44,827 nucleotides of DNA, from the IMG/VR virus record IMGVR_UViG_3300043448_001133, positions 1 to 44,827 of that record; one strand, written 5' to 3'. The stretch comes from a virus. The notes under the pieces are model-generated. The model did no database searches. It worked only from the letters and a program-made list of their open reading frames with translations, and was not told where the DNA came from. Below, one piece after another: positions 3,834-44,784 of this stretch (position 1 is the first letter of the stretch; each line of letters begins with the position of its first letter). The position numbers and the translations under genes are program-made.

Positions 3834-6800
3834 ATGTCTGATTATAAAATATCTTTAAGCGAAGTCGAGTCTTTTTTACTGGGTCACGATGACGAAAAAT
3901 ATATCGTAAATTTAGAGTACGATAAAGAAACGAACTTAATTTATAAGTTCAAACAACTACCTGACGGCACAAAAACAACTGAAACCGAACCGCTTAAGTC
4001 CTTTATGTGGATGAAACACCTCGGCGAGTTAAAAGAAAACCTTAATTTTTACGGTAAAAACGATCTAAACATTCAAAATGCTAGAAAAGAATATGGTATA
4101 ACCATAACCGAACTTGACCACCAAAACCACCCTAAGCTTGAGACTGGTTACCAATATTTGGTAACTTGCGATCAGGGGCATGAAAGAATGTTGCAGTTTT
4201 TTAGAAACGGAGGTCTTTATGGTGGTGTGTACGATAGACGTAATGGTATAAATGAAAACTTCTTAATTTTGAGCCCTATCGAACAATACCTAATATCAAC
4301 AGGTAAAAGGCTTTATAAAGGTTATGAGGACTACGACAATCTAGAAAAATTCGTATTTGACTTAGAGACAACTGGTTTGGATCCTAAAACTTCTAGGATA
4401 TTTTTAGTTGGTTGTAAGTCAAATAATGGTTTTGAGGAATTATTTGATTGTGAAACCGATGGTGAAAATGCTGACAGAAGTGAAGTTGCCGCGATAGCTA
4501 AATTTTTTGCGGTTATCGATTATTTAAAACCAACAATAATTGGGGGGTACAATAGTGCAAACTTTGACTGGGATTTTATTTTTAAAAGATGTGAAATACT
4601 TGGTGTTGATATAACTAAAATCGCCAAAACACTAAAAAACGGTGAAGTTATTAATAATCGAGATGGTATATTAAAATTGGGTAACGAAATTGAAGATTAT
4701 GTTCAAACAAACATGTTCGGATATTCGATTATTGATATTATACACTCTGTTAGAAGAGCTCAAGCAATTGACTCTAGCATGAAGTCAGCCTCGTTAAAAT
4801 ACGTTTGTAAGTATAACAAAGTAGCAAAAAAGAATCGTGTCTATATTAAAGGTGATAAGATTGGCGCTTTATGGTCTAGCGATAAAAAATATTATTTTGA
4901 TGATAAGACTGGTTCTTATTTAGAAATAAAACCAAAATTTGAAAAAATGGATTATATCACAAGAGAAATTGTTCGAGATAATCCTAAAAAAATATTTGTT
5001 TTTGGTGATAATGATGAGCGTGATGGTTTTGGTGGCCAGGCTGGCCAAATGAGGGGGGAAAAAAACTCAATTGGAATACCAACAAAGAAAAAACCAACAA
5101 TGGATCCTGATGCGTTCTATTGTGATTCCGAATTTGAAGAAAATAAGAAAAAGATTAATTATGCGGTAACGCAAATTTTATCAAAAATACGAGATGGTTA
5201 TAGTGTTGTTTTTCCATCAGATGGTCTTGGTACTGGTTTAGCTGAATTACCAAAAAGAGCGCCAAAAACTTATCAGTTTTTACTGGCAAATATTAATGCC
5301 ATTGAAAAGTATGTCAATCACGATTGGATTGAAGTTGATGGTAAATACATAGTTAAAAGGTATTTGATGGATGACTTATGGGAGACCATGGAAGTTGATA
5401 ACATCTACAATCAAACATCTTTTATGTTGGCTAAAATGATCCCAACCACATATCAAAGAGTGTCAACCATGGGTACCGCTGGGTTATGGAAACTACTAAT
5501 GCTAACATGGTCTTATGAGAAAAATTTAGCAATACCAATTTCGGATAGAAAAAGAGATTTTGTTGGGGGGTTATCAAGACTATTAAAAGTTGGGTTCTCA
5601 AAAGACTTGAGAAAAATGGACTTTAACTCACTGTACCCAGCTATACAATTAGCGCATGATGTATTCCCATCTGTTGATGTTAGTGGTGTAATGAAATCTT
5701 TCTTAAAATATTTTCACTCTGAAAGATTTAAAGCAAAAGACTTGGCTAAAAAATATGGTAAAGAGGGTAATAAACAACTTGAGTCGCTTTACAAAAGAAA
5801 ACAATTACCACTTAAAATCTTCATCAACTCGATGTTCGGTGCGTTGGGTGCACCAAATGCGTTCCCGTGGGCTGAAATGGATGTTGCTGAGGGTATAACA
5901 TGTAGAGCTAGGCAGTATCTTCGTTTAATGGTTAAGTTCTTTATGAAAAGAGGTTACCAACCAACTGTACTTGACACTGACGGTGTTAACTTCATGGCGC
6001 CAAGTACAGGTGAAGAACATTTTTATTATGTGGGTAAAGGTTATAATAGCGAAGTTGTTGCGGGTAAAGAATACAGAGGTGTACATGCCGTTGTTGCTGA
6101 ATTTAATGATTTATATATGAAAGGCGAGATGGCACTTGGTTTAGATGGTATGTGGCCAGCCACACTAAATTTAGCTCGTAAAAACTATGCTCTACTTGAA
6201 AATGATGGTAGTATTAGTTTAACTGGAAATACGATTAAATCTAAAAAGCTACCAATTTATATTGAAGAGTTTTTGGATAAGTCTATTGTTTTACTTTTAA
6301 ACGGTAAGGGTTATGAGTTTGTCCAACTTTATTATGATTATATAGGTAAGATATGTGACAAAAAAATACCTTTGGCTAAAATCGCAACCAAAGCTAGGGT
6401 TAAAAAAACTATTGAACAATATAGAAACAGAGGTGTTAACAAAAACGGACAACCATTACCAAAACAAGCTCATATGGAATTGGCTATTTTAAATAATATA
6501 TCGGTCAGTTTGGGTGATACACTTTATTATGTGAATAATGGTACAAAAAAATCTCACGGAGATATCCAAACAACCAAAAAATGTAAGTTAAAGGCGGCTG
6601 AAGTTAGATTGTTTGAGATTAATAATGGTAAGTCACCAGGCCCAGAGTATTATGATATAACTGAAAAAATAAATTGCTATCTTCTTGATGAAAAGCAAAT
6701 GGAGGCTAACCCAGAAGCTGTTGGGGAATACAATGTTGAAAAATATGTTGCGATGTTTAATTCTAGAATCAAAGGGCTTTTGGTTAATTTTGATATTAAG

Positions 6801-7040
6801 GTTAGAAACCAAATACTAATTAACAACCCAGAAGAAAAAAAGAATTGGATGGTATCAGAACTTGAAATGGTTAATAGCCAACCAAATAAAGAAAGCGATC
6901 AAGATACAATTGAGGAATTATTCACACCATCAGACCTTGAAAAGATTTATTGGGGTAAATACAATTACGATTCTGATTTTTGGTTTACGGATAATGTCAA
7001 TTTCACAATCCCAGGTTTGGGTAGAGAAGTACCTGTTTAG
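3834..7040 (+). CDS. T4-like family B DNA polymerase with domain inserted in the exonuclease
   Basis: Replicative DNA polymerase of the gp43 type, 1068 residues against about 900 for T4. Exonuclease motifs: Exo I FDLET with D176 and E178, Exo II NSANFDWDF with D245, Exo III YLMDD with Y510 and D514. Polymerase motifs: A DFNSLYP (D596), B KIFINSMFGALG (661-672), C LDTDGVNF (D714, D716). Motif C has Gly717 where DTDS is the norm. The extra length is mainly a macro-domain-like segment, about residues 368-497, between Exo II and Exo III. All catalytic acidic residues are present, so it should both polymerise and proofread. The gene is alone behind a host-type promoter and is followed by a late-type motif. 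Confidence 0.96.
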   Translation: MSDYKISLSEVESFLLGHDDEKYIVNLEYDKETNLIYKFKQLPDGTKTTETEPLKSFMWMKHLGELKENLNFYGKNDLNIQNARKEYGITITELDHQNHPKLETGYQYLVTCDQGHERMLQFFRNGGLYGGVYDRRNGINENFLILSPIEQYLISTGKRLYKGYEDYDNLEKFVFDLETTGLDPKTSRIFLVGCKSNNGFEELFDCETDGENADRSEVAAIAKFFAVIDYLKPTIIGGYNSANFDWDFIFKRCEILGVDITKIAKTLKNGEVINNRDGILKLGNEIEDYVQTNMFGYSIIDIIHSVRRAQAIDSSMKSASLKYVCKYNKVAKKNRVYIKGDKIGALWSSDKKYYFDDKTGSYLEIKPKFEKMDYITREIVRDNPKKIFVFGDNDERDGFGGQAGQMRGEKNSIGIPTKKKPTMDPDAFYCDSEFEENKKKINYAVTQILSKIRDGYSVVFPSDGLGTGLAELPKRAPKTYQFLLANINAIEKYVNHDWIEVDGKYIVKRYLMDDLWETMEVDNIYNQTSFMLAKMIPTTYQRVSTMGTAGLWKLLMLTWSYEKNLAIPISDRKRDFVGGLSRLLKVGFSKDLRKMDFNSLYPAIQLAHDVFPSVDVSGVMKSFLKYFHSERFKAKDLAKKYGKEGNKQLESLYKRKQLPLKIFINSMFGALGAPNAFPWAEMDVAEGITCRARQYLRLMVKFFMKRGYQPTVLDTDGVNFMAPSTGEEHFYYVGKGYNSEVVAGKEYRGVHAVVAEFNDLYMKGEMALGLDGMWPATLNLARKNYALLENDGSISLTGNTIKSKKLPIYIEEFLDKSIVLLLNGKGYEFVQLYYDYIGKICDKKIPLAKIATKARVKKTIEQYRNRGVNKNGQPLPKQAHMELAILNNISVSLGDTLYYVNNGTKKSHGDIQTTKKCKLKAAEVRLFEINNGKSPGPEYYDITEKINCYLLDEKQMEANPEAVGEYNVEKYVAMFNSRIKGLLVNFDIKVRNQILINNPEEKKNWMVSELEMVNSQPNKESDQDTIEELFTPSDLEKIYWGKYNYDSDFWFTDNVNFTIPGLGREVPV
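4935..5324 (+). other. Macro-domain-like (DUF7831-like) insert inside the DNA polymerase exonuclease
   Basis: About residues 368-497 of the polymerase. It begins with ITREIVRDNPKKIFVFGDN, continues with GFGGQAGQMRG and IGIPTKK, and ends with VVFPSDGLGTGLAELPKRAP. I know this pattern from small stand-alone phage proteins (the family I recall as DUF7831) that look macro-domain related; the GxGTGLAxLP loop resembles a nucleotide or ADP-ribose binding loop. Polymerase sequence resumes at WIEVDGKYIVKRYLMDD, so the insert sits in a surface loop just before Exo III and leaves the catalytic core intact. The boundaries are by eye. Confidence 0.75.
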
Positions 7041-9924: not shown

Positions 9925-10320
9925 ATGGATGAAAAAGTTTGGGTAAATGGTACATTTGACGTTTTACATAATGGACATTTCAGATTAATTAATTATGCGT
10001 CATCATTAGGCAAGTTAATAATCGCCATTGATAGCGATGAGCGAGTTAAAAAACTAAAAGGTGGTAACAGACCATACCATAATCAGTTTGAAAGACAGTA
10101 TAATTTACAATCAATAAAAGGTGTATACAATGTACTAGTTTTTGATAGTGATGAGGAATTAAAAGAATTAATTAAATTTAACTCACCAGAGTATTTTGTT
10201 ATAGGGTCTGATTATAAAAATAAAGAAATAATTGGATCCCAATACGCCAAGGAAATAATCTACTTTAATAGAATAAACTTTTCAACAACAGAAATCTTAA
10301 AACAATGGGACATAAAATAA
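9925..10320 (+). CDS. Cytidylyltransferase-like sugar/polyol nucleotidyltransferase
   Basis: A 131-residue protein of the nucleotidylyltransferase (HxGH) superfamily, as in glycerol-3-phosphate cytidylyltransferase (TagD) and heptose-1-phosphate adenylyltransferase (RfaE/HldE C-terminal domain). Motif NGTFDVLHNGHFRLI at residues 8-22 contains the HxGH signature, and STTEIL near the C terminus matches the ISSTxI motif. Length fits the single-domain enzymes. It would transfer CMP or AMP from CTP or ATP to a sugar or polyol phosphate; the exact substrate cannot be told. It overlaps the cupin gene by 16 bases and precedes a long glycosylation operon, which supports a role in making activated sugar. 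Confidence 0.85.
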   Translation: MDEKVWVNGTFDVLHNGHFRLINYASSLGKLIIAIDSDERVKKLKGGNRPYHNQFERQYNLQSIKGVYNVLVFDSDEELKELIKFNSPEYFVIGSDYKNKEIIGSQYAKEIIYFNRINFSTTEILKQWDIK

Positions 10321-10706
10321 AACCAAAAGTCATCAATGCAAAAGAATGCGAAAGTTGTAATATACCAAAAGGTTGGGGACACGAAATTATTTTTGAAAAT
10401 AATGAACTATATTGTGGTAAATTACTTTGTTTTAAAGCTGGGGCTAAGTTTTCTATGCATTACCACATGATAAAAGATGAAGCGTGGTATGTTAAAGAAG
10501 GTAAATTCATTTACAGGTGGATTGACACGGATAACGCCGATATTCATGAAATTGAATTACGAGAGGGTGACAGTGTTAGACAATTACCAGGTCAACCACA
10601 CCAATTAGAAGCGGTTACCGATGGTATCGTTTTTGAGGTTTCAACACAACATTTTGATTATGATTCCTATCGCGTATTAAAAGGTGATTCAAATAAACCC
10701 CAATAA
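10305..10706 (+). CDS. Cupin-domain protein (sugar isomerase/epimerase-like)
   Basis: A 133-residue single cupin. Motif 1 is FSMHYHMIKDEAWYVKEG (residues ~47-64), with two His and a Glu as metal ligands. Motif 2 is around LPGQPHQLEAV (residues ~91-101), with another His. The closest look is to the C-terminal cupin of mannose-6-phosphate isomerase/GDP-mannose pyrophosphorylase type proteins and to small cupins in sugar clusters. It probably acts on a sugar phosphate or nucleotide sugar; the substrate is unknown. It overlaps the nucleotidyltransferase gene and likely forms a two-gene unit with it. Confidence 0.8.
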   Translation: MGHKIKPKVINAKECESCNIPKGWGHEIIFENNELYCGKLLCFKAGAKFSMHYHMIKDEAWYVKEGKFIYRWIDTDNADIHEIELREGDSVRQLPGQPHQLEAVTDGIVFEVSTQHFDYDSYRVLKGDSNKPQ

Positions 10707-10713
10707 AATTAAT

Positions 10714-10744
10714 AAAATACTTGTTTTTTAGCGTATTTTTTTTT
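10714..10744 (+). terminator. Weak possible terminator
   Basis: AAAATAC (10714-10720) can pair with GTATTTT (10733-10739) across a 12-base loop, and five more T follow. The stem is A/T-rich with a single G-C pair, so strength is doubtful. It overlaps a possible promoter for the next operon. Confidence 0.3.
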
Positions 10745-10751
10745 ATTATTG
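10720..10751 (+). promoter_or_regulatory. Possible Bacteroidota-type promoter for the 10774-23166 operon
   Basis: CTTG at 10720-10723, a 20-base spacer, then TATTATTG at 10744-10751, one base off TAnnTTTG. The spacing is identical to the three better promoters in the window. The ATG of the first glycosyltransferase is at 10774. A TATAAATA string at 10765-10772 touches the ATG and is probably chance. Confidence 0.45.
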
Positions 10752-10773
10752 GGTAAAACCCAGTTATAAATAT

Positions 10774-12000
10774 ATGGCAAAAATTAAAATTTTAGTAGCC
10801 CCAGGTGATAAAGCGGGTTCTGGTAAATTTAGATGTGTTGATCCGCATGTAAACCTACAAAATAACTTTTCTGACGAATTTTTTATCGATATTGATTATG
10901 CGATAGATTTTAATAATGTAGAGTATTTAAAAAAGTATGATGTTATTTTTATACACAGAATACCGCAGCATAAACACAAAGAAGCTGTAAACATAATTAA
11001 AAATTTAAAGAAAATTGGATTAAAGGTAATCATTGATACAGATGACCACTGGAATTTAGATCCATCGCATGGTTTATATCATTCAGCTAAAAGGGAAAAT
11101 ATCTCAGGTATTTTAGTTGAGTGTATTAAAATGGCTGACATGGTTACAGTACCAACTACAATTTTAGCTGATGAAGTTAAAAAATACAATAAAAATGTTT
11201 TTGTTTTACCAAACGCAATTGACCCAAATGAAGAACAATTTAAACCTAAAAAAACAGAATCTAATTTAATTAGATTTGGTTGGTTAGGTGGTTCTTCCCA
11301 CATAAAAGATATTGAGTTATTAAAAGGTTTAGGTAATACGCAAAAATCTTTTGATAAAAAAACACAATTTGTTTTATGTGGGTTTGATACCCGAGGTACC
11401 GTTCAAATGTTGGATCCAAACACAGGTGAGATAAAACAAAGACCAATGCAACCACAAGAAACAACCTGGTTTATGTATGAGTTGTTTTTAACCGACAGTT
11501 ATAAAAACTTAGAGGGTGATGCGGATTATTTAAAATACTTAGTTTCGTTTGAAGATGATCCAAATTACAGTGTGTTAAATAAACCTTATCGTAGAATTTG
11601 GACAAAACCCATTAGTCAATATGCGACTGGGTATAATCATTTTGACATTGCGTTGGCCCCACTTAACGACTCTCAATTTAATAAGTATAAATCTCAACTT
11701 AAAGTGATTGAAGCTGGATTTCATAAAAAAGCTTTGATTGCTCAAAACTACGGGCCATATACGATTGATTTGATTGGCGCTATTGATAAAGGTGGCGCCT
11801 GGAACCCAAAAGGTAATTGCTTACTTGTTGAAACTTCTAAAAACCATAAACAATGGACTAAAAATGCTAAAAAATTAATTGACAATCCAGATTTAATCAC
11901 CGAACTTGGTGAAAAATTATATGAAACGGTTAAAGATAAATACAATTTAAATAACGTTACAAAATTAAGATCAGAACTATACAAAAATTTAATAAAATGA
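10774..12000 (+). CDS. GT-B fold glycosyltransferase
   Basis: A 408-residue glycosyltransferase of the GT4-like GT-B type. The N-terminal half has alternating beta/alpha units with KYDVIFIHRIPQHKHKEAV and VIIDTDDHW (about residues 50-95), and NVFVLPNAIDPNEE (~140) is the usual linker strand (VxPNGID). The C-terminal half starts with IRFGWLGGSSHIKDI (~168), the GT4 nucleotide-sugar site opening, and has FDIALAPLNDSQFNKYKSQLKVIEAG (quoted within limits as FDIALAPL then KVIEAG), equivalent to the ExxxxG(K)P loop. It is the first gene of a long run with short overlaps. Donor and acceptor are unknown. Confidence 0.85.
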   Translation: MAKIKILVAPGDKAGSGKFRCVDPHVNLQNNFSDEFFIDIDYAIDFNNVEYLKKYDVIFIHRIPQHKHKEAVNIIKNLKKIGLKVIIDTDDHWNLDPSHGLYHSAKRENISGILVECIKMADMVTVPTTILADEVKKYNKNVFVLPNAIDPNEEQFKPKKTESNLIRFGWLGGSSHIKDIELLKGLGNTQKSFDKKTQFVLCGFDTRGTVQMLDPNTGEIKQRPMQPQETTWFMYELFLTDSYKNLEGDADYLKYLVSFEDDPNYSVLNKPYRRIWTKPISQYATGYNHFDIALAPLNDSQFNKYKSQLKVIEAGFHKKALIAQNYGPYTIDLIGAIDKGGAWNPKGNCLLVETSKNHKQWTKNAKKLIDNPDLITELGEKLYETVKDKYNLNNVTKLRSELYKNLIK

Positions 12001-14790: not shown

Positions 14791-15419
14791 TAAAATATAT
14801 TATACCAGCGAGACGAAACTCAAAAGGGTTTCCATTTAAAAATAGAAAATTAATAAATTATACGTTAGATAATCTACCAAAAAACGTATATGACGATGTT
14901 ATTTTAACTACCGATGATGAAAAGTTATTGGAAATTGGTTTAAAATATGGTATAAAATGTATTAATAGAAACGCAAGCTTAGCTTTAGATGAAACCTCAA
15001 CCAAGGAAGTGATGGACGATCTAAAGTTTCAAGGTATTATTAATGACACAGACATTGTTGTTATGTTATATTTGACATATCCGCAAAGAAACTGGTTAGA
15101 TATAATTAACGCTTTGCGGTTTTTTGATAATAAAAATGCAAAAAGCCTTTTGTGTAAAAAAGAAATAACAACAACCCACCCATATTTATATTTACTTGAA
15201 GTTGGTGATTTTAAGGGTAAACAATTAACCCCCCATAATCTATACAGAAGGCAAGATTATCCAAAAGTTTTTGAAGTATCACACTTTATATCTATTTTTA
15301 AAGTCAGTGAACTCGAAAATTTAAATAATAATCTTTATAATAACGACACCGTTTTTTATCCAATTGATGATATAATTGATGTTGACACTAATAAAGATTT
15401 AGAAAGGTTTTTAGAATAA
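14787..15419 (+). CDS. neuA: Acylneuraminate cytidylyltransferase (NeuA-like)
   Basis: A 210-residue CMP-nonulosonate synthetase-type enzyme (CTP plus sialic, legionaminic or pseudaminic acid to CMP-sugar). The N terminus IIPARRNSKGFPFKNRKL (residues 5-22) is the family nucleotide-binding signature, followed by VILTTDDEKLLEIGLKYGI with the TDD metal region. VVMLYLTYPQRN replaces the usual LLQPTSPLR. YPIDDIIDVDTNKDLERFL ends the protein in the family manner (IDxDTxxDL). Length fits the single-domain enzymes. The start is GTG at 14787, coupled to the upstream stop. The exact nonulosonate cannot be told. It partners with the NeuB-like enzyme at 21291 and the GT29-like gene that follows. Confidence 0.88.
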   Translation: MIKYIIPARRNSKGFPFKNRKLINYTLDNLPKNVYDDVILTTDDEKLLEIGLKYGIKCINRNASLALDETSTKEVMDDLKFQGIINDTDIVVMLYLTYPQRNWLDIINALRFFDNKNAKSLLCKKEITTTHPYLYLLEVGDFKGKQLTPHNLYRRQDYPKVFEVSHFISIFKVSELENLNNNLYNNDTVFYPIDDIIDVDTNKDLERFLE

Positions 15420-16555
15420 TGGGCATTTTTATAAAAAATAAAACAAAAAGGGTACAAAAAGATGACACAAAACAACCAGTGTTAACTAATACAGCGACTA
15501 ATAAATCTTTAATAGGTGAAGAGGTTGTTGTTGCTGAAAAAAAAGCAATTAAAAAAGGATTTGCTGATAAAAAAATTGTAAACAAAGAACCAGTAAAGAC
15601 TACAATTAATTCTTTGTCGGTTAATAAAGAGGAAAAAAAATCTGTGTTGTTATTTGAAAATAACACAAAAAATGAACCGACCACAAATTTATTAATTAAT
15701 AAAATTAATAATTCTTCAGGTAGAAACTCAATTTTTGACAAAGTTGTTGCCCCAGAAATTAAAAATTCAAATGACAAAGTTGTTAACGACATTTATGATA
15801 AAGCTAGGAAAAATATTAGTTTTATAAAAAATAAAAATAATAAGTATTATGATTTTGTTTTCACTAAAGGGTACATAAATGAAAAAGATATTAAACATGT
15901 TAACACTGAACTAGATAAACAATTAAATAATTTAAAAATAAATCCGTCAACAATGGATTTATACTTTTTTAAATCGTTTATAAAAGATAAAACAATTGCT
16001 CTCATTGCCAACTCTTCTGATTTATTAAATAAAAAACTTGGCGGGGAAATCGATTCTCACGATATTGTAATTAGATTTAATTCGTATAAAATATTAAAAG
16101 AGGACACTGGTGAAAAATTAACTATGCATGTTAGCATTTATTTACAAAATGAAAATTTAAATAATTTTGCGCCCATTAGATTTATCCTTTCAGGTATTAA
16201 AACAAACTGGGCTAAAAAAATATTAACATTAAATAAGTTCAATCAATCCACAATATTAAAGTATAATCATCACTCAATATTACCAGGTAATTTCAAAGAT
16301 GATTCGCCAACCACAACAGGTTTTGCTACTTTAATTTTACTACTTAAAATTGGTGGTTTTAAAAAAATCAATATGTTTGGTTTTGATTTTTATCAAAAAG
16401 GTAATGATAGTTTATTTAGAACGGACATTGGTATGGAATCACAAATATCCACCGTCCATGATTATTTCTTTGAAAAAGAATTTATAATGGAATATTCGTA
16501 TGAATATAACGATAAAAAAAATATAATTACTTTTTATGATTATAGCACATTTTAA
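15419..16555 (+). CDS. GT29-type sialyltransferase with lysine-rich N-terminal region
   Basis: A 378-residue protein. Residues ~1-120 are Lys/Asn/Thr/Glu-rich and low-complexity. The C-terminal ~190 residues carry GT29 sialylmotifs. Motif L: IALIANSSDLL at 193-203, then GEIDSHDIVIRFNSYK at 209-224, matching VGNSxxL--GxxIDxHDxVxRxN. Motif S: SPTTTGFATLILLL at 296-309, then INMFGFDFY at 317-325, matching PSTGxxxLxxAL---VxxYGF. Motif VS: His347 and Glu352 in HDYFFEKEF. GT29 enzymes transfer sialic acid from CMP-sialate and are best known from eukaryotes, with sparse bacterial and viral members. It shares one base with the NeuA-like gene that would make its donor. No membrane anchor was seen. Confidence 0.85.
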   Translation: MGIFIKNKTKRVQKDDTKQPVLTNTATNKSLIGEEVVVAEKKAIKKGFADKKIVNKEPVKTTINSLSVNKEEKKSVLLFENNTKNEPTTNLLINKINNSSGRNSIFDKVVAPEIKNSNDKVVNDIYDKARKNISFIKNKNNKYYDFVFTKGYINEKDIKHVNTELDKQLNNLKINPSTMDLYFFKSFIKDKTIALIANSSDLLNKKLGGEIDSHDIVIRFNSYKILKEDTGEKLTMHVSIYLQNENLNNFAPIRFILSGIKTNWAKKILTLNKFNQSTILKYNHHSILPGNFKDDSPTTTGFATLILLLKIGGFKKINMFGFDFYQKGNDSLFRTDIGMESQISTVHDYFFEKEFIMEYSYEYNDKKNIITFYDYSTF

Positions 16556-23864: not shown

Positions 23865-24941
23865 ATGGAAAAAATAAACGAGACATTAAAGAACATCGAA
23901 AGTGCGATTGAAAAAGTTAAAAACAAAGAAAGTAAAATCGTATTTTTATCACCAGACACAAAAGGTACGGCCAGAGCTAGCGTGTCGTATATTTACCGAC
24001 AAGCGTTAATATTAAAAAATGCTGGCTACACAATTAACATATTACACGAAAAAAACGATTACATCAAAGTCGGTAGTTGGTTAGGTGAGGAATATGATGA
24101 GCTAGAACATAAATCAATCGAAAATAACGATTTAACTGTTGGGCCTCAAGATATTATTGTGGTACCCGAAATATATGGTAATGTTTTTGAACAAATATTA
24201 CAATTACCAGTTCAAAAAGTTATATTAACGCAATCTTATGATTATTTATTAGATAGTTTTTCACCTGGTAAATCTTGGTTAGATTTTGATGTTATGACTT
24301 GTTTGACAACATCAAAAACATTATCTGATGCCATAAGCGAACTAGTACCTTCAAGTAGTATTGAGTTTGTTAATCCTGGTATTGCCGAATGTTTTTCACC
24401 GAGTGAAAAACCACAAATGCCAGTTATTGCAATTCATTGTAGAGATCAAAGAAAAGCGGCAAAAATAATTAAAACTTTTTATTTAAAATATCCGCTATAT
24501 CGCTTTATTTCGTTTAAAGATATGCACGGAATGACTGAAAGTGATTTCGCAAAAAATTTAAAAGAATGTGCGTTATCTGTTTGGGTCGATGATGATAGTA
24601 CTTTTGGCACATTTCCAGTTGAATCTATGAAATGTAACGTTCCCGTTATTGGTAAAGTACCTAATATAATTCCAGAATGGATGAATGATGATAATGGTAT
24701 TTGGGTTTACGATGAAAACCAAATTGCGGATTTAGCATTTAACTATATTAAAAATTGGATGGAAGATAGTTTACCAGAAAACCTATTAAAAGTAAGTGAA
24801 ACTGTTGATGGTAAATATACTATGGAATCATTTGAAAAAGCAACAATCGAAGTCTACAACACAATGTTTGAGAATTGTTTGGCTAGACTTAATAGAATAA
24901 AAGAAACCTTTGAAAAAACACTAGAAACTAATGAAAACTAA
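23865..24941 (+). CDS. GT-B type glycosyltransferase
   Basis: A 358-residue protein. An N-terminal helix (INETLKNIESAIEKVKN) precedes a GT4-like N-domain starting SKIVFLSPDTKGTARASVSY with ALILKNAGYTINILHEKND. The C-domain has VIAIHCRDQRKAAKIIK (about residues 186-202) and the donor loop DDSTFGTFPVESMKCNVPVI (~243-262), matching ExFGxxxxEAMxxGxPVI, followed by WMNDDNGIWVYDE. The last ~30 residues form a charged helix. It overlaps the next glycosyltransferase gene by 11 bases. Sugar unknown. Confidence 0.85.
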   Translation: MEKINETLKNIESAIEKVKNKESKIVFLSPDTKGTARASVSYIYRQALILKNAGYTINILHEKNDYIKVGSWLGEEYDELEHKSIENNDLTVGPQDIIVVPEIYGNVFEQILQLPVQKVILTQSYDYLLDSFSPGKSWLDFDVMTCLTTSKTLSDAISELVPSSSIEFVNPGIAECFSPSEKPQMPVIAIHCRDQRKAAKIIKTFYLKYPLYRFISFKDMHGMTESDFAKNLKECALSVWVDDDSTFGTFPVESMKCNVPVIGKVPNIIPEWMNDDNGIWVYDENQIADLAFNYIKNWMEDSLPENLLKVSETVDGKYTMESFEKATIEVYNTMFENCLARLNRIKETFEKTLETNEN

Positions 24942-26493: not shown

Positions 26494-26874
26494 ATGATTG
26501 GCAATCAAAAAAAGAAAAAAATTGATGTTTCTGAGGAAAGCATGAAAGAACTTATGCAAGAAACGTATAATGAAATTGTTGATGAAAGAAATAAAGCTTT
26601 AACCGCTTATAAAAAATTCAGCAAAGACATTAATGAAAATTCCGATATAGCTTTAGTTGGTAAGATTACAAACGATCTTTTAAAAATAATCGATGGAACT
26701 ATTGAAAAAAAACTAAGGTTAATTAAAATTCAAAGCGATATTTTGTATAAAAACGGTAAAGGCGCATCGGGTGATGGTGGTGCCCCAATGGTGATTACAG
26801 AGGAAGATAGGAAGTGGGCTGAAGAGTTTTTAAAAAAACAAAATAACGGTGATAATGAAAAAGAATACGAATAA
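26494..26874 (+). CDS. Hypothetical coiled-coil protein
   Basis: A 126-residue, highly charged, helical protein: a basic N terminus (GNQKKKKIDVSEESMKELM), a long helix with heptad-like spacing to about residue 90, then a Gly-rich linker (GKGASGDGGAPM) and a short C-terminal helix (EEDRKWAEEFLKKQN). It overlaps the next gene by one base (TAATG). The architecture is compatible with a small assembly or packaging accessory protein such as a small terminase, but nothing identifies it as one. Confidence 0.7.
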   Translation: MIGNQKKKKIDVSEESMKELMQETYNEIVDERNKALTAYKKFSKDINENSDIALVGKITNDLLKIIDGTIEKKLRLIKIQSDILYKNGKGASGDGGAPMVITEEDRKWAEEFLKKQNNGDNEKEYE

Positions 26875-28811
26875 TGAGCCAACAAAGTGAAATATTTTCA
26901 AGGTATCGATCACTTTTTAACAGTAGTTCAATTAGACCTCTTGAAAGTGAAACATCGAGGCGGTTAAACAACATGGACTTTGTTGATTTTTTATTTGAAT
27001 TAGTTAAAGCAACAAAAGGTCAAAAACAATTTAAAAATATAATATTAAAAGGTAGTTTGTCGAAATTAAAAAAAACTGATGAATTAAACAAAACTATAAA
27101 AAAAGCTTTATTAGCTCAATTTGGTTGTGATGATACTTTAATTATACCAACTAAATACACCACCAAATCATCGCTAGGAGTTGAATTGGATAAAGGTGAA
27201 ATCGACCCTTTTGGTATGTTTGGTATCGATCCAGATACTCAAGTTGGTAAACTGATGTATGAAGGTAACGATCCCAAAAAACACATTAACTATCTATTAT
27301 TTAAATCTCAAGGGGTTGGGACAATAAACCCAGTTGAAATGAATTATAATGGTAGAGTTTTATTTAGAGTATACGCAAAAACGCCAAACACCCTTATTTT
27401 TAAATTTGGTGAATTTTACGAAAACAAACTTTATATTGAATGGTTAAATGATTATATAGATGCTATGCAGCCAATATTTAACACAGTTAATTTTACAACA
27501 ATATTAACTGATATTATTACTGGTGCAATTTCTTTAAAAGCGAATAAAAACAAAATAGAAATAAGAAAACAAAGCGGGGTTATTAAAGCCTTGCAAAAAA
27601 TATTTGGATTTTGTTCAGAGTCCGATGAAAATATTGGAGGGCCAAGTCAACCAACTAATAATATATTAAAAGATCCATTATTACAAAATTCGAATTTTAA
27701 TGGTGAAAATATTGTCGGAAGTCAAAGTGGTTTGGGTGATTTTAACAATGAAAATCAATCAAGTGACGACCCTTTTGATTTTGATTTTAATGATTTGGAT
27801 GAAATTGAACGGGATACCGATTTAAAATCTAGAGGCGTTATTAGGTTTTCAACATGTGGTGATTTGGATTTAGATATAAATCCAGATGATATTTTAAGTG
27901 GTTTAGAATTACTGTTCGCCAATGCGGATCAGAATAATGTTTACAGTTATGACGGTACAATAAATAATGAACTCCCAGAAACTGCCACTGCTAGTCCATT
28001 ATATGATAATTCGCAAATCGTACCCAATTCAGACAAAGCCGCAGATTTTTTTGATAATGCGTTAAAAAATGGGGCAAATAATGCGATAAATCAAGGTGAA
28101 ACAAATATTATTATTGATTTACCCACAATGAACGCTGAGTTACAATTAAATATTTTAAAAGCTATACCATATGCTTTAATGCAAATGGTATTAAGCCCTA
28201 AAGTTGTTTTAGTACCCAAACTATTTACGGTATTAAGTGGTGATACTGGTAAAAAATCCCCAAATGATTTTATAAAAAACATGATGCCATCCATTTCAAA
28301 AATAGGTGAAAATATAACAAGCATGTTAATACAAAATATATTTGACGCGATAAAATCAGATTTGACTAGATTGGCTAGCGAATTAGCAATTGCATACTTA
28401 AAACAACGTGGTATGGATTATTTAGCAACGCTAAGATCTTTATTAAGTTTGCTTGGCTTGTTTAGTGGCGGAGGTGGGGGTTGTGGCGGTGTTTTGGACA
28501 AACTTCTAAAATTACTAAAACTATCAAATTTTGGGCCGATGCCTATGCTACCACCACCATTGGTACTTATAGCTGGCGCAATAAAACCTGGTATGAATAG
28601 TGTATCAATGATAAATGATATTAAATCTAGTTTAACCGAAAAAGGTATAGAGACCGCACCAACACTACCCGATGGTACACCAAATAATATGATGATTGCA
28701 ATAGAAGAAACTGTTAAAACAATGGTTACACACATTAAAACAAATTCGACTATACAAACTTTTGGTATATCTGCGGTTGGCCCAGTTCAAGGCTATGGGC
28801 AAATTCAATAA
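26874..28811 (+). CDS. Large virion structural protein (baseplate/hub region), unassigned
   Basis: A 645-residue protein. The N-terminal ~230 residues are mixed alpha/beta (DFLFELVKATKGQKQFKNII, later LYIEWLNDYIDAMQPIFNT). A central acidic, Asn/Asp-rich stretch (residues ~255-330, e.g. DPFDFDFNDLDEIERD) is probably flexible. The C-terminal third is hydrophobic and helical (LNILKAIPYALMQMVLSPKV, then a leucine-rich stretch), with a glycine run GGGGGCGG near residue 540 and the proline-rich PMPMLPPPLVLIAG. That end could be membrane-active or a tape-like contact. It sits just upstream of the gp5-like spike gene, which suggests a baseplate hub protein; that is inference from position. Confidence 0.6.
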   Translation: MSQQSEIFSRYRSLFNSSSIRPLESETSRRLNNMDFVDFLFELVKATKGQKQFKNIILKGSLSKLKKTDELNKTIKKALLAQFGCDDTLIIPTKYTTKSSLGVELDKGEIDPFGMFGIDPDTQVGKLMYEGNDPKKHINYLLFKSQGVGTINPVEMNYNGRVLFRVYAKTPNTLIFKFGEFYENKLYIEWLNDYIDAMQPIFNTVNFTTILTDIITGAISLKANKNKIEIRKQSGVIKALQKIFGFCSESDENIGGPSQPTNNILKDPLLQNSNFNGENIVGSQSGLGDFNNENQSSDDPFDFDFNDLDEIERDTDLKSRGVIRFSTCGDLDLDINPDDILSGLELLFANADQNNVYSYDGTINNELPETATASPLYDNSQIVPNSDKAADFFDNALKNGANNAINQGETNIIIDLPTMNAELQLNILKAIPYALMQMVLSPKVVLVPKLFTVLSGDTGKKSPNDFIKNMMPSISKIGENITSMLIQNIFDAIKSDLTRLASELAIAYLKQRGMDYLATLRSLLSLLGLFSGGGGGCGGVLDKLLKLLKLSNFGPMPMLPPPLVLIAGAIKPGMNSVSMINDIKSSLTEKGIETAPTLPDGTPNNMMIAIEETVKTMVTHIKTNSTIQTFGISAVGPVQGYGQIQ

Positions 28812-28821
28812 TCAAGTATTT

Positions 28822-29034
28822 ATGAAAAACGAAAAGTTACAAGAAATTATAGATAATTGCAAAAACAAACCAAATAAAGATTTGGCAAATGTTTTAGTTA
28901 CGCTTGAAGTTGATTTTAATAATATTAAATCAACAATACTAGAATTAACAGAAACATTAAAAGAACTTGAAATTACATATGATACTGTATACGATGAATT
29001 ACAAAAAAGATTAAAATTTGAAGATAAAAAATGA
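28822..29034 (+). CDS. Small coiled-coil hypothetical protein
   Basis: A 70-residue protein starting at ATG 28822, 10 bases after the upstream stop; upstream in-frame starts lie inside the previous gene and are not favoured. It is almost entirely helical with hydrophobic residues at heptad spacing (LANVLVTLEVDFNNIKSTIL, then LTETLKELEITYDTVYDELQ), so a coiled coil is likely. It overlaps the gp5-like gene by four bases. A TATTTATG string overlaps its start codon. Function unknown; possibly a baseplate hub partner or chaperone. Confidence 0.7.
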   Translation: MKNEKLQEIIDNCKNKPNKDLANVLVTLEVDFNNIKSTILELTETLKELEITYDTVYDELQKRLKFEDKK

Positions 29035-30665
29035 AGGCCGATTATAAAATAGGTGTGTGTTTTGACAATGAAGATCCTAAAAATTTAGGTAGGATCAGAG
29101 CAATTCCTATTGATATTTTGGGTAAATTTGCAACATTAAAAGATATTCGCGATTTTGTCAAAAAAGAAGATGATAAAGCAATAGCCGCTTTACTTTACAA
29201 CCCGTGGTACCCAACAAAATACCAAAACTTTAAAGAAAAAGATAAATATGTTTGCGAACCATTTTTGCCAAAAAATATAGGAGTCACACCAAATGCTGGT
29301 CAATTAGTTAAAATAATAACATATGAAGACTTAAATCAAAAACTTGAGTTTATAGGCCCCTACACAATAGATCAAGTAACTCTAACTGAAGAATATAGAA
29401 ATGTTGTAAGTAACCTACAAAAAACCTTATCAATAGCTGAAGTTATACCTAAAAAGGGTAAGACATTTATTTCTGGATACTCAAACGAACAAATTATTTT
29501 GGGTGATAATGAATTTTTAATTAGATTAAACCACATAAATGGCAGTGAAAAAACTAGAAAAACTAGTTATCCTTTTATACAGTTATCTCAATTTTTTAAT
29601 AGTTATGATGTTAAACAAAAAACAACAACTATTACAGAAACACCAGATATTCCAATTGATTTTATTTGTGAATTGTTTTTACAATACACCCCAAAAAGAA
29701 ATTCGAATGAAAAAAATTTTACAGCCGAAGTTATTTTATATGACGCCTCAAAGCAAATAAATAGAAAGGGTGAAATAGGGTTAACTAAAGATACTTACTC
29801 CCCAACAACACAATATATAACAAATTCATATACAAATTATGTTGTTAAACACTACATAAACACATCTAATGGGGGTGAATTTATAAAAACAATTGAAGAT
29901 ATAATATCTGGGTATAACTCTGGTGGTTTAATAAAATATTATGATGTGAACAACACATTGTCCGAACAAAGGATTGAAAATAATAGTACTACGATAATAG
30001 TATATAATAATGTAATAACTACACCAAATGCGGGTGGTGCTTTGGGTGATTCTAATATTGTATCAAATATTAAAAGTTGGTTATTTAGACTAACGCCTGG
30101 TACAAAATTAACTGATTATGCTGGTAATTTAACCCAACCTAATTTACCTGATAATAACATTGAAACTATTAGATATAAAGATTATATTAAATTGGATTCA
30201 TTAATATCAAAATACACTGTTGATAAAAAATATGGTAACCTGGCTATCAATAATTCAAGAACAACAACTGTTACAAAACCAGTCGCCGAATCTTTAAACA
30301 AACCACAATCAGTCCATACGATTTATTCTGACAAATTTTTATTTTTAAGTAGTTTGAATTCTTTAAATATTGTTGATAATTTAAATTTTGATGGACTCCC
30401 ATCTGATAAAATAGCAGAAATTTTAAGTGGATTGAATCAAAACACAAGAACTTATGGGTTTGTGAGAGGTGAAAAATTAATGGAGTTGCTTAATGAAATT
30501 TTGGATATGTTTACTAAACATGGACATGAAGCTGGAAAAGATCCAAGAGCATCAATTATCCAATCAACCCAAGAAGCCGTTGAGAATCTAAAAAAGAAAA
30601 TAAAAGATGAGTTAAAGGAAGGTCAAAATAATGTGATAATCAATCATAACTTAAGACTTAATTAA
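29031..30665 (+). CDS. Baseplate spike/hub protein with gp5-type OB domain
   Basis: A 544-residue protein. The N-terminal KIGVCFDNEDPKNLGRIRAI (about residues 6-25) is the classic start of the gp5/VgrG OB fold (GxVxxNxDPxxLGRVRV). CEPFLPKNIGVTPNAGQLVK and IITYEDLNQKLEFIGPY (~75-115) complete the pattern (P-xxxxPxxGxxVxIxxxD). The middle is beta-rich and Asn/Thr-rich. Unlike T4 gp5, no lysozyme domain is visible. The C terminus has RGEKLMELLNEILDMFTKHG and an amphipathic helix (NLKKKIKDELKEGQNN). It most likely forms the central needle complex of the baseplate. Confidence 0.75.
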   Translation: MKADYKIGVCFDNEDPKNLGRIRAIPIDILGKFATLKDIRDFVKKEDDKAIAALLYNPWYPTKYQNFKEKDKYVCEPFLPKNIGVTPNAGQLVKIITYEDLNQKLEFIGPYTIDQVTLTEEYRNVVSNLQKTLSIAEVIPKKGKTFISGYSNEQIILGDNEFLIRLNHINGSEKTRKTSYPFIQLSQFFNSYDVKQKTTTITETPDIPIDFICELFLQYTPKRNSNEKNFTAEVILYDASKQINRKGEIGLTKDTYSPTTQYITNSYTNYVVKHYINTSNGGEFIKTIEDIISGYNSGGLIKYYDVNNTLSEQRIENNSTTIIVYNNVITTPNAGGALGDSNIVSNIKSWLFRLTPGTKLTDYAGNLTQPNLPDNNIETIRYKDYIKLDSLISKYTVDKKYGNLAINNSRTTTVTKPVAESLNKPQSVHTIYSDKFLFLSSLNSLNIVDNLNFDGLPSDKIAEILSGLNQNTRTYGFVRGEKLMELLNEILDMFTKHGHEAGKDPRASIIQSTQEAVENLKKKIKDELKEGQNNVIINHNLRLN

Positions 30666-30678: not shown

Positions 30679-32232
30679 ATGGGAATTTACCGCACATATT
30701 TTGACAAGAATAATACAATAGTAAGAAATTCTTTAGTTAATACAGGCAGAAACCAGGTTTCTGAGCTATATTTTGGTGACAAAGTCAGTAGATTTTTGTT
30801 TTACTGTTCATTTGATGAAATAAAAAATAAAGTTGAAAATAAAGAAATTATTATCAATGGCGATGTTAAACACTATCTTAGGATAAAGAATACATCAAAT
30901 TTTGATGTTTCACCTTTTTTATCTGATAGCAATAATTTGGTTTTTACTGATAAGTATAGATCATCTTCTTTTGATTTAGAATTAAAACCAGCAAAAGAGT
31001 TTTGGGATGAAGGTATGGGTTATGATTTTCAATTAAGCCCATTTTCCAGGCCACAAGATAGGGACTTTAACGAAGAACCGTCAAACTGGTTCAATGGCAC
31101 ATACGTCAATGAATTTTTGACGCCAGGTGTTACATTGGGTAACAGAATAGCTTTACAACATTTTGATAGAGGCAATGAGGATGTTTTAATGGATATCACC
31201 AATTTCGTTAATGGAATTATTACCACAGGAATAACCACTGGTATAACAACGGGGATAACCACTGGCATGACTACTGGAATTACAACTGGAATTACAACGG
31301 GGATAACCACTGGCATGACTACTGGAATTACCACTGGTATAACATACATAATAACAACAGGTATTACAACAGGAATCACCACTGGAATTACTACTGGCGT
31401 AACAAGTAGTTATAACGGATTTTGTTTAAAATATACCGATCCATACGAATCTTTAGTATTCGATGATGCCAGGGCTTATGTTTTGGGTTTATTTACAAAA
31501 TATACACAAACATTTTTTGAACCTTTTATCGAAACACATTATAATGACCATATAGTTGATGATAGAGTTGATTTTTTCTTAAATAAAACTAATAGGTTGT
31601 ATCTTTATGTAAATGTTGATGGTAAATTAACTAATTTAGATGAATTACCATCATTTAATATCGATGGGGTTGTTACTTTAAATCCATTTGTTGTTAAACA
31701 ACAAACAAAGGGTGTTTATTATGTTGAATTTTTTGCATCAAGCGATGTTTATGATTCTTATACTGAATATAAAGATGTATGGTCTAACATAAAAATTAAT
31801 GGTATTAACAGACCAGATATAAAATTACGTTTTGTACCCAAAGAAGATAATGATTATTACCAATTAGGATCGGATGTTTCCGAACCAATTAGGTATGGAT
31901 TATCAATTAGTGGTATAAAAAGAGAGGAAAAAATTAACCAAGGAGAAAAAAGACGCATTAATGTGCATCTTAGGAAACCATATACTGTTGAACAACAAGA
32001 CGTAAAAACTAACGTATATTATAAATTATACGTCAAACAGGGCCCAAATGTTATAGATATACTTGATTGGCAACCCGTCAATAAATTATATAATTCAAAT
32101 ACATTTAATATTGATACGACCTGGTTAGTACCTCAAATATACTACGTGGATATTAAGATTGAAAGGAATGATGAGGTTAATGTTTATAATGAAGAATTAA
32201 AATTCACTATTTTAAGTAAATTAAAAGGATAA
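30679..32232 (+). CDS. Structural protein with a 60-residue TTG[IMV] tetrapeptide array
   Basis: A 517-residue beta-rich protein. Residues 182-241 are fifteen tetrapeptides: fourteen TTGI, TTGM or TTGV and one TYII. The array sits between DVLMDITNFVNGI and NGFCLKYTDPYES, which together look like two neighbouring strands of a DNRLRE or lectin-type jelly roll, so the repeats would project as a long loop. The C-terminal half has further beta domains (VKQQTKGVYYVEFFASSD; RRINVHLRKPYTVEQQD; a final Ig-like part IYYVDIKIERNDEVNVYNEE). It lies after the spike gene in the tail unit. A tail, baseplate or head decoration role is inferred. The following gene starts at its stop (TAATG). Confidence 0.65.
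   Translation: MGIYRTYFDKNNTIVRNSLVNTGRNQVSELYFGDKVSRFLFYCSFDEIKNKVENKEIIINGDVKHYLRIKNTSNFDVSPFLSDSNNLVFTDKYRSSSFDLELKPAKEFWDEGMGYDFQLSPFSRPQDRDFNEEPSNWFNGTYVNEFLTPGVTLGNRIALQHFDRGNEDVLMDITNFVNGIITTGITTGITTGITTGMTTGITTGITTGITTGMTTGITTGITYIITTGITTGITTGITTGVTSSYNGFCLKYTDPYESLVFDDARAYVLGLFTKYTQTFFEPFIETHYNDHIVDDRVDFFLNKTNRLYLYVNVDGKLTNLDELPSFNIDGVVTLNPFVVKQQTKGVYYVEFFASSDVYDSYTEYKDVWSNIKINGINRPDIKLRFVPKEDNDYYQLGSDVSEPIRYGLSISGIKREEKINQGEKRRINVHLRKPYTVEQQDVKTNVYYKLYVKQGPNVIDILDWQPVNKLYNSNTFNIDTTWLVPQIYYVDIKIERNDEVNVYNEELKFTILSKLKG
31222..31401 (+). repeat. 12-bp in-frame minisatellite (TTG[IMV] coding)
   Basis: Fifteen 12-base units in frame with the host gene. A 38-base block is repeated exactly at 31246-31283 and 31294-31331, a 48-base (four-unit, TTGI x3 then TTGM) higher-order period. 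One unit near 31342-31353 has diverged to TYII. Such arrays are prone to slippage. Confidence 0.9.
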
Positions 32233-33480: not shown

Positions 33481-34620
33481 ATGGAAAAAACTGAAAGACA
33501 ATCGAATATCGACCTAACTGGGTATCCTAAGTTGATAAACAACGATATTCTAAACAAAATCGCGAATAGACGCCATCCTATGGCTAATATGCCGTATTAT
33601 CACAAGAAAAATGAACCACAAAAACTTCACGAAGAAGATATAATTGAGGATCGTTTTAAAAATTTGGTTGATTCATATACTAATACATTTGGTGGTAGTA
33701 AAGAACATGTTAATCAAATGCGTGTGATGATGAACGCTGGTGCCAATGGTATGGAAATAATGCGAACTGAAAAACCAAAACGTAAAGAATTGGTTCGATT
33801 GGTTGAGCGTATTATGCGAGAAGAATTTAATGTTGGTCGCGATGAGGTTTTATTTGATTTGGAAATTGTTGATGTTGGATCTTGTGATCTTCCAGATGAG
33901 ATGGACACCGAAAAAGAAATTAACGATGATTTCGAGCAAACAGACAACTTTGATGTTTTAAAGAAAAGGACAATTAATGCTTTTTCACAAGGAGCCGCAC
34001 TGGCATCACATTACATTTTCCATATGTATAAAGATGATTTTGAAAAAATATGTTCGGACATCACACCAACTTACCAAAGAGCTCTTATAGCGAATGATTT
34101 GTTTTACTTCATATTGGATGATAGTAGTCTACAAAATCAACTTTGCAGTGGTGAAAGTGGTGCTAATGCTGGATACTGTCGTTTAAATTTTGATGGCGAC
34201 ATTCCTGTTATTGAAGCCAAAGCTATAAGCGCACCGATATTATTACATGAAGTTACAAAAGCCCTAATAACATTTTTTTCGATTCCAGGTATTCAAAACA
34301 TGGATAAAGAAACTATTGATGAAACGGATTATGTGATGGCCGAATTGTGGGATATTCGTTTTGGTACAACACTTTGGGTTAATTTCCACTCACTTATAGA
34401 TGAAAGAGATTATGACATTAAAAAATTAATCTTTGTTGAAGTATTTAAAATGGATTCAGAGATGTTTGTTAAAGACTTCATGTACAATGTCATGAATAAA
34501 CCCGAATTAGCTAAAAAAGAGATTGATTTTATTGTTAAAAAAATCAGAAATAAAATCACCGAATACCAATTTGAAAAGGATTCTGACGGTATCGACTTGT
34601 CCGATTTGGGTATTTTCTAA
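33481..34620 (+). CDS. Unknown phage protein between tail and packaging genes
   Basis: A 379-residue soluble protein, not recognised. The N-terminal ~130 residues are basic (HPMANMPYYHKKNEP; MRTEKPKRKELVRLVERIMR), then comes FDLEIVDVGSCDLPDEMDTE. A helical central part (FSQGAALASHYIFHMYKDDF) follows, and FDGDIPVIEAKAISAPILLH leads to HEVTKALITFFSI (about residues 258-270). The HEVTK is reminiscent of HExxH but lacks the second His. The C terminus is acidic. It has its own host-type promoter and a late motif behind it, so it probably is expressed early as a single gene even though it lies among late genes. Confidence 0.75.
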   Translation: MEKTERQSNIDLTGYPKLINNDILNKIANRRHPMANMPYYHKKNEPQKLHEEDIIEDRFKNLVDSYTNTFGGSKEHVNQMRVMMNAGANGMEIMRTEKPKRKELVRLVERIMREEFNVGRDEVLFDLEIVDVGSCDLPDEMDTEKEINDDFEQTDNFDVLKKRTINAFSQGAALASHYIFHMYKDDFEKICSDITPTYQRALIANDLFYFILDDSSLQNQLCSGESGANAGYCRLNFDGDIPVIEAKAISAPILLHEVTKALITFFSIPGIQNMDKETIDETDYVMAELWDIRFGTTLWVNFHSLIDERDYDIKKLIFVEVFKMDSEMFVKDFMYNVMNKPELAKKEIDFIVKKIRNKITEYQFEKDSDGIDLSDLGIF

Positions 34621-43197: not shown

Positions 43198-44784
43198 ATG
43201 GGTGCATTATTAGAATCAGGAAAAGTTGGTAACGTAAGTTTAAATCACTTAAAAACTGTACGTACTGACGTAATTAACAGATGGGACAGCTTAGGTCTTT
43301 TAGAAGGCTTAAATGGACATCGTAAAGAGAACATCGCTCAGTTGTTCGAAAACCAAGCTTCATACATGTTGAACGAAGCTACATCATTAGGTGTTGAAGG
43401 TTCTTTCGAAACTGTTGTGTTCCCTATCGTGAGAAGAGTATTCTCAAAATTATTAGCAAACGAAATCGTTTCTGTACAAGCGTTGAACTTACCTATTGGT
43501 AAATTGTTCTACTTTGTACCGAAAATTGGTAGATCAGAATTTGGTAAATCGGGTGGCCCAGAAAGCAATGACCCAAGAAACCAAATGCAGATGGCTGAAG
43601 CTTTCAGTGCTAACAAGAATACATACGATGCTTTCTACGGAGAGGATGGTTTGTATGATAAATCAAAAGGTGAGGGTACAACAGCTACTGGTACAACCCA
43701 CACCGCTAGCTTATTTAAGTTCAGCACAGCTGGTTTTGCTGTAAAAACTGGTACCACAATCACATCTGGTACAACTGAAATCGTTAAAGTTACTTTAACT
43801 GGCGCTGGAAACTACGAAAATGCTGAAGAATTCTTAAGCACAATGGAAGTTTCTTACACTGGTGGTACTTTAGATTTTTACTTCCCATCTCAAAAATATG
43901 GTACACAATTGATGGATGGTTCGGGTGTAACTTATATCTCAGTTGTTGCTCCAGATAACGACAACGTTGATTTGTCTGATATCACTGTAACTTACAAAAC
44001 TTACGATTCATTAGAATTGTCTGATAACATGGGTGAAGTGAGCTTCGAACTTCAGTCTGTAACCGTATCGGTTATCGAAAGAAAGTTAAGAGCACAATGG
44101 TCTCCAGAATTAGCTCAAGACGTGTCAGCGTTCCATAACATTGACGCAGAAGCTGAATTAACAGCTTTATTGTCTGAGCAAGTTGCTGCTGAGATCGATC
44201 GTGAGATCTTAAGAGACTTACGTAGAGGTGCTGCTTGGAGATTGTCTTGGGATTACGCTGGTGTTACTGGCCGTGGTATCGATACAACTAACTCAGGCGC
44301 ATTCTATACTCAAAAAGAATGGAACCAAACCTTGATCACTGCGATCAATCAAGTTTCTGCTCAAATCCACAAAGCAACTCTTCGTGGTGGCGCAAACTGG
44401 ATCGTATGTTCAGCTGAGGTTTCTGCAATTTTTGATGATTTAGAATACTTCCACGTATCTAACGCTGCTCCTGAGCAAGATAAATTCAACATGGGTATTG
44501 AAAGAGTGGGTTCACTTTCTGGTCGTTACCAGGTTTACCGTGATCCTTACTTCCCAGCTGACACAATCTTGATGGGACACAAAGGAACTTCATTGTTAGA
44601 CACAGGTTACATTTACGCACCATACGTGCCAATGCAATTAACCCCTACAATGTATAATCCGTTTACCTTCGCTCCAGTTAAAGGTATCATGACTCGTTAC
44701 GCTAAGAAAATGGTTAACAACCGTTTCTATGGTGTAATCAAAGTTAAGAATATCGTTAGCTTCGGTATCGATGGTTTCAGATAA
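43198..44784 (+). CDS. Major capsid protein (gp23-like)
   Basis: A 528-residue capsid protein of the T4 gp23 type (T4: 521). The N-terminal ~60 residues form the removable delta region, with LNE followed by Ala at 58-61 as the likely gp21 cleavage site (T4 cuts gp23 after residue 65 in a similar setting). After it come EGSFETVVFPIVRRVFSKLL (67-86) and NEIVSVQALNLPIGKLFYFV, typical of the family. The C-terminal half has RKLRAQWSPELAQDVSAFHN, EAELTALLSEQVAAEIDREI, IVCSAEVSAIFDDLEYFHVS and the end FYGVIKVKNIVSFGIDGFR. Codon use is visibly different from the rest of the window (more TTC, ATC and GCT), as expected for a very highly expressed gene. Confidence 0.97.
   Translation: MGALLESGKVGNVSLNHLKTVRTDVINRWDSLGLLEGLNGHRKENIAQLFENQASYMLNEATSLGVEGSFETVVFPIVRRVFSKLLANEIVSVQALNLPIGKLFYFVPKIGRSEFGKSGGPESNDPRNQMQMAEAFSANKNTYDAFYGEDGLYDKSKGEGTTATGTTHTASLFKFSTAGFAVKTGTTITSGTTEIVKVTLTGAGNYENAEEFLSTMEVSYTGGTLDFYFPSQKYGTQLMDGSGVTYISVVAPDNDNVDLSDITVTYKTYDSLELSDNMGEVSFELQSVTVSVIERKLRAQWSPELAQDVSAFHNIDAEAELTALLSEQVAAEIDREILRDLRRGAAWRLSWDYAGVTGRGIDTTNSGAFYTQKEWNQTLITAINQVSAQIHKATLRGGANWIVCSAEVSAIFDDLEYFHVSNAAPEQDKFNMGIERVGSLSGRYQVYRDPYFPADTILMGHKGTSLLDTGYIYAPYVPMQLTPTMYNPFTFAPVKGIMTRYAKKMVNNRFYGVIKVKNIVSFGIDGFR

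Follow-up and report, generated by a model that had tools for sequence, protein, structure and literature searches.

The DNA polymerase encoded in this viral genome fragment is a replicative family B enzyme that carries a whole DUF7831 domain (PF25176) within its proofreading region, between the Exo II and Exo III motifs, and the same domain is found at the same site in a clade of related viral polymerases. The window, meaning the whole stretch of DNA that was analysed, corresponds to a virus record with a length of 44,827 bases. Judged from the comparison of sequences, the insertion in the polymerase is real and old. The explanation that we favor, to which we give about an even chance, is that a nucleotide-pocket module was captured in a single insertion, kept its pocket in most carriers and turned into a structural part of the polymerase. 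The polymerase and its parts are located as follows.

3834..7040, plus strand: ORF of the family B DNA polymerase of 1068 amino acids that hosts the insertion (Pfam DNA_pol_B_exo1, DNA_pol_B and RNase_H_2; PHROG 262, DNA polymerase).
4356..4367, plus strand: Exo I motif FDLE (D176, E178), identical in all aligned rows covering the motif.
4548..4571, plus strand: Exo II motif YNSANFDW (D245), with D245 invariant in 40 polymerases.
4935..5324, plus strand: inserted segment, residues 368-497, absent from non-carrier relatives (empty-site alignment; purifying selection).
4947..5285, plus strand: DUF7831 domain proper (PF25176), residues 372-484 (hmmscan E 4.7e-43; AlphaFold2 model of residues 368-495, pLDDT 96.5).
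4995..5012, plus strand: FVFGDN, residues 388-393, with the family-invariant F390, G391, D392 and N393 (residue comparison; YSDN, YSEN or YDEN in L127-129 and L134-136).
5025..5060, plus strand: GFGGQAGQMRGE, residues 398-409, glycine-rich loop and short helix (family alignment, residue comparison).
5070..5096, plus strand: IGIPTKKKP, residues 413-421 (family alignment, residue comparison).
5220..5252, plus strand: DGLGTGLAELP, residues 463-473, second glycine-rich loop (family alignment, residue comparison).
5361..5375, plus strand: Exo III motif YLMDD (Y510, D514), directly 3' of the insertion, invariant in 40 polymerases.
5619..5639, plus strand: polymerase motif A DFNSLYP (D596), with D596 invariant in the alignment.
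5973..5984, plus strand: polymerase motif C DTDG (D714, D716), invariant in the alignment.

The window polymerase has all the catalytic residues of Exo I, Exo II, Exo III, motif A and motif C, supporting its membership in family B. In the alignment of 40 polymerases, D176, E178, D245, Y510, D514, D596, D714 and D716 were kept in every row covering them, with or without the insert. The model of the whole polymerase (pLDDT 84.8) matched the KOD, 9N and Tgo polymerases with E values down to 2.5e-29, and the same Exo I-III motifs, polymerase motifs and fold are shared with KOD-type archaeal polymerases and with the large-phage family B polymerases devoid of the insert (L142-L201; L010, L011 and L016). 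The initial annotation had placed around 130 extra residues between D245 of Exo II and Y510/D514 of Exo III, and it was correct on both counts, as these catalytic residues are found in 40 of the 40 aligned polymerases and the extra segment matches DUF7831 with an E value of 4.7e-43. The carriers are taken to be large phages because a polymerase 98% identical to that of the window sits on a contig of 299 kb (L008). Downstream of the polymerase the window contains a head module, with a portal protein (36669-38519, phrog_213) and a major head protein (43198-44784, phrog_138). Seven ORFs of the window, of 358-645 amino acids, are without PHROG match at E 1e-4 (237-1895, 15419-16555, 23865-24941, 26874-28811, 29031-30665, 30679-32232 and 33481-34620).

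The match of the insert to PF25176 scored 146 bits, with a curated cut-off of 27 bits, and spanned model positions 4-116 of 118; the insert also matches phrog_2072. The small stand-alone phage family whose complete signature had been read in the insert is thus PF25176, and the motifs quoted for it are all present (FVFGDN at 388-393, GFGGQAGQMRG at 398-408, IGIPTKK at 413-419 and GLGTGLAELP at 464-473). The whole domain and all its motifs are alike in the stand-alone phage, giant-virus and bacterial proteins of PF25176/phrog_2072, with identities of 37-61% in the family alignment. Elsewhere DUF7831 constitutes a free protein of around 130 amino acids or a part of larger proteins, whereas here it is embedded in a replicative DNA polymerase. 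No useful match to the insert was obtained from NCBIfam, and sequence searches of the PDB with the insert or with a profile of 70 members returned insignificant matches only, mostly triosephosphate isomerases. DUF7831 is not mentioned in the open-access papers searched, which gave no ligand or activity for any DUF7831 protein. Neither there nor in PMC9503650 did our search find such a domain described inside a replicative polymerase, or any domain inserted into the exonuclease part of a family B polymerase from a phage.

Among the relatives in IMG/VR, the domain was detected at the same site in at least 25 distinct carrier ORFs from many metagenomes, and it is absent from at least 61 distinct related polymerase ORFs, the nearest of them 52-55% identical, the widest search covering the best 80 of more than 530 polymerase matches. 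The non-carriers that the alignment covers at this site show a loop of 15-25 residues at the place where carriers have the domain of 130 residues. This loop lies between '..YYFDDxTGSY' and 'IVxRYLxDDLWET', and the alignment of these empty sites sets the boundaries of the insert at around 364-368 and 491-498. The alignment with relatives without the insert also shows that the flanking polymerase sequence is continuous, in agreement with the clean domain insertion proposed initially. With the insert columns excluded from the polymerase tree, the 13 carriers sampled fall all on one side of a single branch with support 100, so that one gain suffices; long branches meet at the root of this tree, as the program warned, and the direction of the event as gain and not loss rests on two separate non-carrier clades. 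The inserts of the polymerases also group together in the domain-family tree, with weak support (70/36). Seven carrier contigs, of 141-321 kb, contain no other copy of DUF7831 than the insert and yielded no Pfam Macro domain, all these records being possibly fragments. In one contig of 321 kb (L036:4897-8168) a frame change near residue 757 interrupts the polymerase, which probably reflects an error in the sequence and not a split gene; an ORF of 797 amino acids was considered there as a truncated polymerase and discarded, as the remainder continues in another frame.

In several polymerases without DUF7831 (L016, L020 and L021, at about 9986-11040, and also L017 and L019), an intein-like insert of around 350 amino acids is located exactly at motif C (GD / SVTFNTPIF ... 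VDLKN / TDG). Phage polymerases often carry inteins, and such an insert in the relatives L016-L021 is what could be put forward for regarding the DUF7831 segment as an ordinary selfish element of this kind, or as an artefact or mis-assembly. We consider this explanation practically negligible, given that the segment appears in at least 25 distinct ORFs of diverse metagenomic origin, evolves under constraint, has no intein end motifs and matches end to end a domain family that is not an intein, and that no near-identical polymerase was seen with the insert precisely excised. An intein as such was rejected, since no Hint or intein Pfam match was found in the polymerase and the insert, DUF7831 from end to end, replaces a loop rather than being added to an intact host.

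Pairwise comparisons indicate that the insert is under purifying selection, with dN/dS values of 0.04-0.2 in nearly all the informative pairs and around 0.015-0.09 in the remaining polymerase; the exception is a near-identical pair with four differences, for which a value of 0.7 was obtained. To describe the putative pocket, we defined as invariant those positions conserved in at least 90% of all the non-polymerase members and also in 15 phage copies found by tblastn with no motif selection. The latter were used as the family sample instead of a census of 399 bacterial genomes, which gave the seed genome only. Eighteen positions were obtained (F390, G391, D392, N393, G398, G401, Q402, A403, E405, R407, E409, N411, G414, T417, K418, P421, G466 and P477). 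Invariance of GDN and GQA is partly built in for the IMG/VR members, since FGDN and GQA patterns served to find most of them, and GDN and the A of GQA are also kept in the 15 tblastn-found copies. We infer a ligand pocket made up of these conserved residues. The window insert keeps 17 of the 18, with Q in place of E405, and non-polymerase members deviate at a mean of 0.35 positions and at a maximum of 3.

Seventeen of the 23 carriers compared deviate at 0-1 of these positions, thus keeping at least 17 of the 18 invariant residues, even though some of them are just around 48-60% identical in the insert, which points to selection on the pocket itself. The other six (L127-L129, near-identical to each other, and L134-L136) have lost 5-8 of the 18 residues, with changes that include G391S/D, D392E, G401E/Q, A403S and P421S/Q, yet they keep the domain, and in L134-L136 its dN/dS is 0.08-0.09. 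The presumed pocket thus decayed on one branch or, more probably, on two, with the scaffold still under selection, and ligand binding does not seem to be what keeps the domain in those six carriers. From such decay with retention it follows that two roles could be separable, a function of the pocket, kept by most carriers, and a structural role that is enough for the domain to be retained. These six carriers on two branches are also an argument for supposing that the insert does nothing but shape the exonuclease, either by affecting the partitioning of the strand between the polymerase and exonuclease sites or by docking a partner of the replisome, the pocket being a leftover. The predicted position of the insertion, directly before the Exo III helix and flanked by short strands, would fit this too. 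We hold this purely structural explanation to be possible but rather unlikely, considering the conservation of the pocket in the 17 carriers, some of them divergent.

The AlphaFold2 model of the domain, built with 70 homologues (pLDDT 96.5, pTM 0.89), predicts an independent alpha/beta domain in which a strand and a helix are followed by a strand leading to FGDN, a glycine-rich loop with a short helix, a strand (IGIPTK), a long helix, a strand leading to the GLGTG loop, and two helices. The same elements appear for the insert in the model of the full polymerase, where short strands (352-363 and 498-502) flank it just before the Exo III helix. The segment is not an ordinary extension of the exonuclease fold common to all the close relatives, as there are relatives without the domain and its predicted fold is independent.

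The initial annotation had further described the module as macro-domain-like, a description for which no support was obtained. Neither PF01661 nor any other macro model was listed in Pfam at E<=10 for 70 members of the family, and a Foldseek search against 350,542 PDB chains produced no macro structure among the 50 listed of 126 matches, with a best E value of 0.49 and a best TM of around 0.42 among the matches listed. Against viral models, Foldseek retrieved DUF7831 proteins from phages and from giant viruses, together with large proteins of crAss-like phages, with no protein named macro domain among the matches listed. The comparison by hhalign with bacterial macro domain profiles gave 0.2%, in a test without power, as its positive control, cpYpsA against LOG, two accepted SLOG families of one superfamily, failed too. 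The SLOG/LOG kinship prompted by the 'GGxxxxM' and 'P..GxGT' motifs found no support either, hhalign against LOG and cpYpsA being negative, as was the cpYpsA-LOG control. The macro fold contains a six-stranded sheet of order 1-5-6-2-4-3, and four main strands are seen in the model of the insert, which is shorter than the Macro (Appr-1''-p processing) domain PF01661. What both have in common is the order of the motifs (strand-N, glycine-rich loop, strand, helix and strand-GxGTG) and the company of SLOG, NADAR and Nudix genes; this likeness in motif order is to be taken as a lead only. One could still imagine a genuine, if reduced, Macro superfamily protein which, at the fork, would free DNA or protein of ADP-ribose and so counter DarT-like host toxins, based on that order, on the ADP-ribose-type gene context and on the presence of polymerase mutations among the phage escapes from DarTG (PMC11481870). 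We find it improbable in view of the searches above, of the smaller number of strands and of the loss of the pocket in some carriers.

For the ligand, the initial annotation had suggested ADP-ribose or a nucleotide, and what stands of it is a context related to NAD, ADP-ribose or nucleotides, to which fusions and gene neighbours point weakly. Among 82 near neighbours of stand-alone DUF7831 genes, in phage clusters, we found CTP_transf_like (5), NUDIX (4), PolyA_pol (3), metallophosphatase (3), NAMPT/NAPRTase (2), RNA ligase (2), NADAR (1), PNKP-type (1) and SLOG (1) families. Outside the polymerase, the domain is accordingly met with phage genes of NAD metabolism, ADP-ribose metabolism and RNA repair. 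Among the families listed, the best 25 per set, those of NAD type (CTP_transf_like, NUDIX, NAMPT, NADAR and SLOG, a grouping picked after seeing the table) account for 13 of 82 neighbours and 2 of 82 distal controls (CTP_transf_like 1, NadA 1; control ORFs with a larger minimum length), with a Fisher p of 0.005. CTP_transf_like also includes CoaD and NadD, and one of the three neighbours of this family located by motif looks CoaD-type. There is thus moderate evidence, from gene content, for an enrichment of NAD-type genes in the neighbourhood. Among annotated phages, DUF7831 lies beside or near tRNA nucleotidyltransferase genes in RcXuper and MD18, and near RtcB and a nicotinamide phosphoribosyltransferase in Cp1R7A-A1. 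Stand-alone copies (L025, L029, L233 and L234) were also observed in the vicinity of DNA helicase genes (Mwe-JY26, phiCbK, CcrSC) or immediately following rIIA/rIIB (phiCbK, CcrColossus).

Regarding fusions, a YpsA-SLOG domain, DUF7831 and DUF488 are joined in an acidobacterial ORF of 1929 amino acids, cpYpsA-SLOG adjoins DUF7831 in a viral ORF of 3334 amino acids, and a third ORF with DUF7831, of 3563 amino acids, has a weak ART-PolyVal match below the cut-off; an N4-type virion RNA polymerase and a guanylate kinase are further partners. Viral SLOG domains have been tied to Macro and NADAR fusions and to NAD-ADPr conflict (Iyer et al. 2022, PMC9503650), and DUF7831 occurs in giant polyvalent proteins of the type described there, with SLOG, a weak ART match or a virion RNA polymerase. 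Four giant viral ORFs (L060:868-12372, L065:2-10690, L054:2335-12336 and L077:1-8262), in which DUF7831 is accompanied by N4-type virion RNA polymerase, weak ART-PolyVal, cpYpsA SLOG or 2OG-Fe(II) oxygenase matches, resemble polyvalent injected proteins, and in a viral ORF of 1615 amino acids (L093:2023-6867) the guanylate kinase domain directly precedes DUF7831. In acidobacterial ORFs of 854 to 1929 amino acids, some of them cut by contig ends (L111, L113, L114, L115 and L116), DUF7831 is located close to the N-terminus; DUF488 is matched in L111 and L116, the second of which matches YpsA SLOG as well. These ORFs may represent an uncharacterised multi-domain protein of a conflict system. From this context, we infer that the ligand of DUF7831 is nucleotide-like or ADP-ribose-like.

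According to the capture of a pocket module that we favor, the ancestor of a clade of large phages would have acquired a DUF7831 segment in frame and once, as the comparison of carriers and non-carriers indicates, at a loop of its replicative family B polymerase that tolerates insertion and connects the Exo II region to the helix of Exo III. The domain is predicted to fold independently, leaving the exonuclease and polymerase next to it intact, and its conserved glycine-rich pocket, kept in most carriers, would act at the replication fork by binding a ligand similar to a nucleotide or to ADP-ribose, either free or linked to DNA. In this way a piece of the NAD/ADP-ribose/RNA-repair toolkit of phages would have become part of the polymerase, and in the two branches where the pocket decayed and the domain is under purifying selection, a structural role would have been held or acquired. 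A more specific and bolder idea, which we regard as unlikely, is that of a polymerase with a built-in counter-defence, in which DUF7831 would recognise or remove ADP-ribose, or a related NAD-derived adduct, on the DNA of the fork, helping to cope with host DNA ADP-ribosylation; the pocket would decay in lineages no longer facing that defence, with the scaffold staying in place. DNA ADP-ribosylation by DarT halts the replication of phage genomes and polymerase mutations are one of the escape routes (PMC11481870), which makes an ADP-ribose domain borne by the polymerase plausible.

Replicative polymerases belong to the most conserved enzymes of phages, and the retention of a whole foreign domain in their proofreading part throughout a clade is unusual. 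The insert provides a defined place in which to ask about the role of DUF7831, a domain of wide occurrence among phages and giant viruses. As intact and decayed pockets form a natural series in polymerases that are otherwise equal, the question of the ligand can be separated from the structural one, in such a manner that both can be tested.
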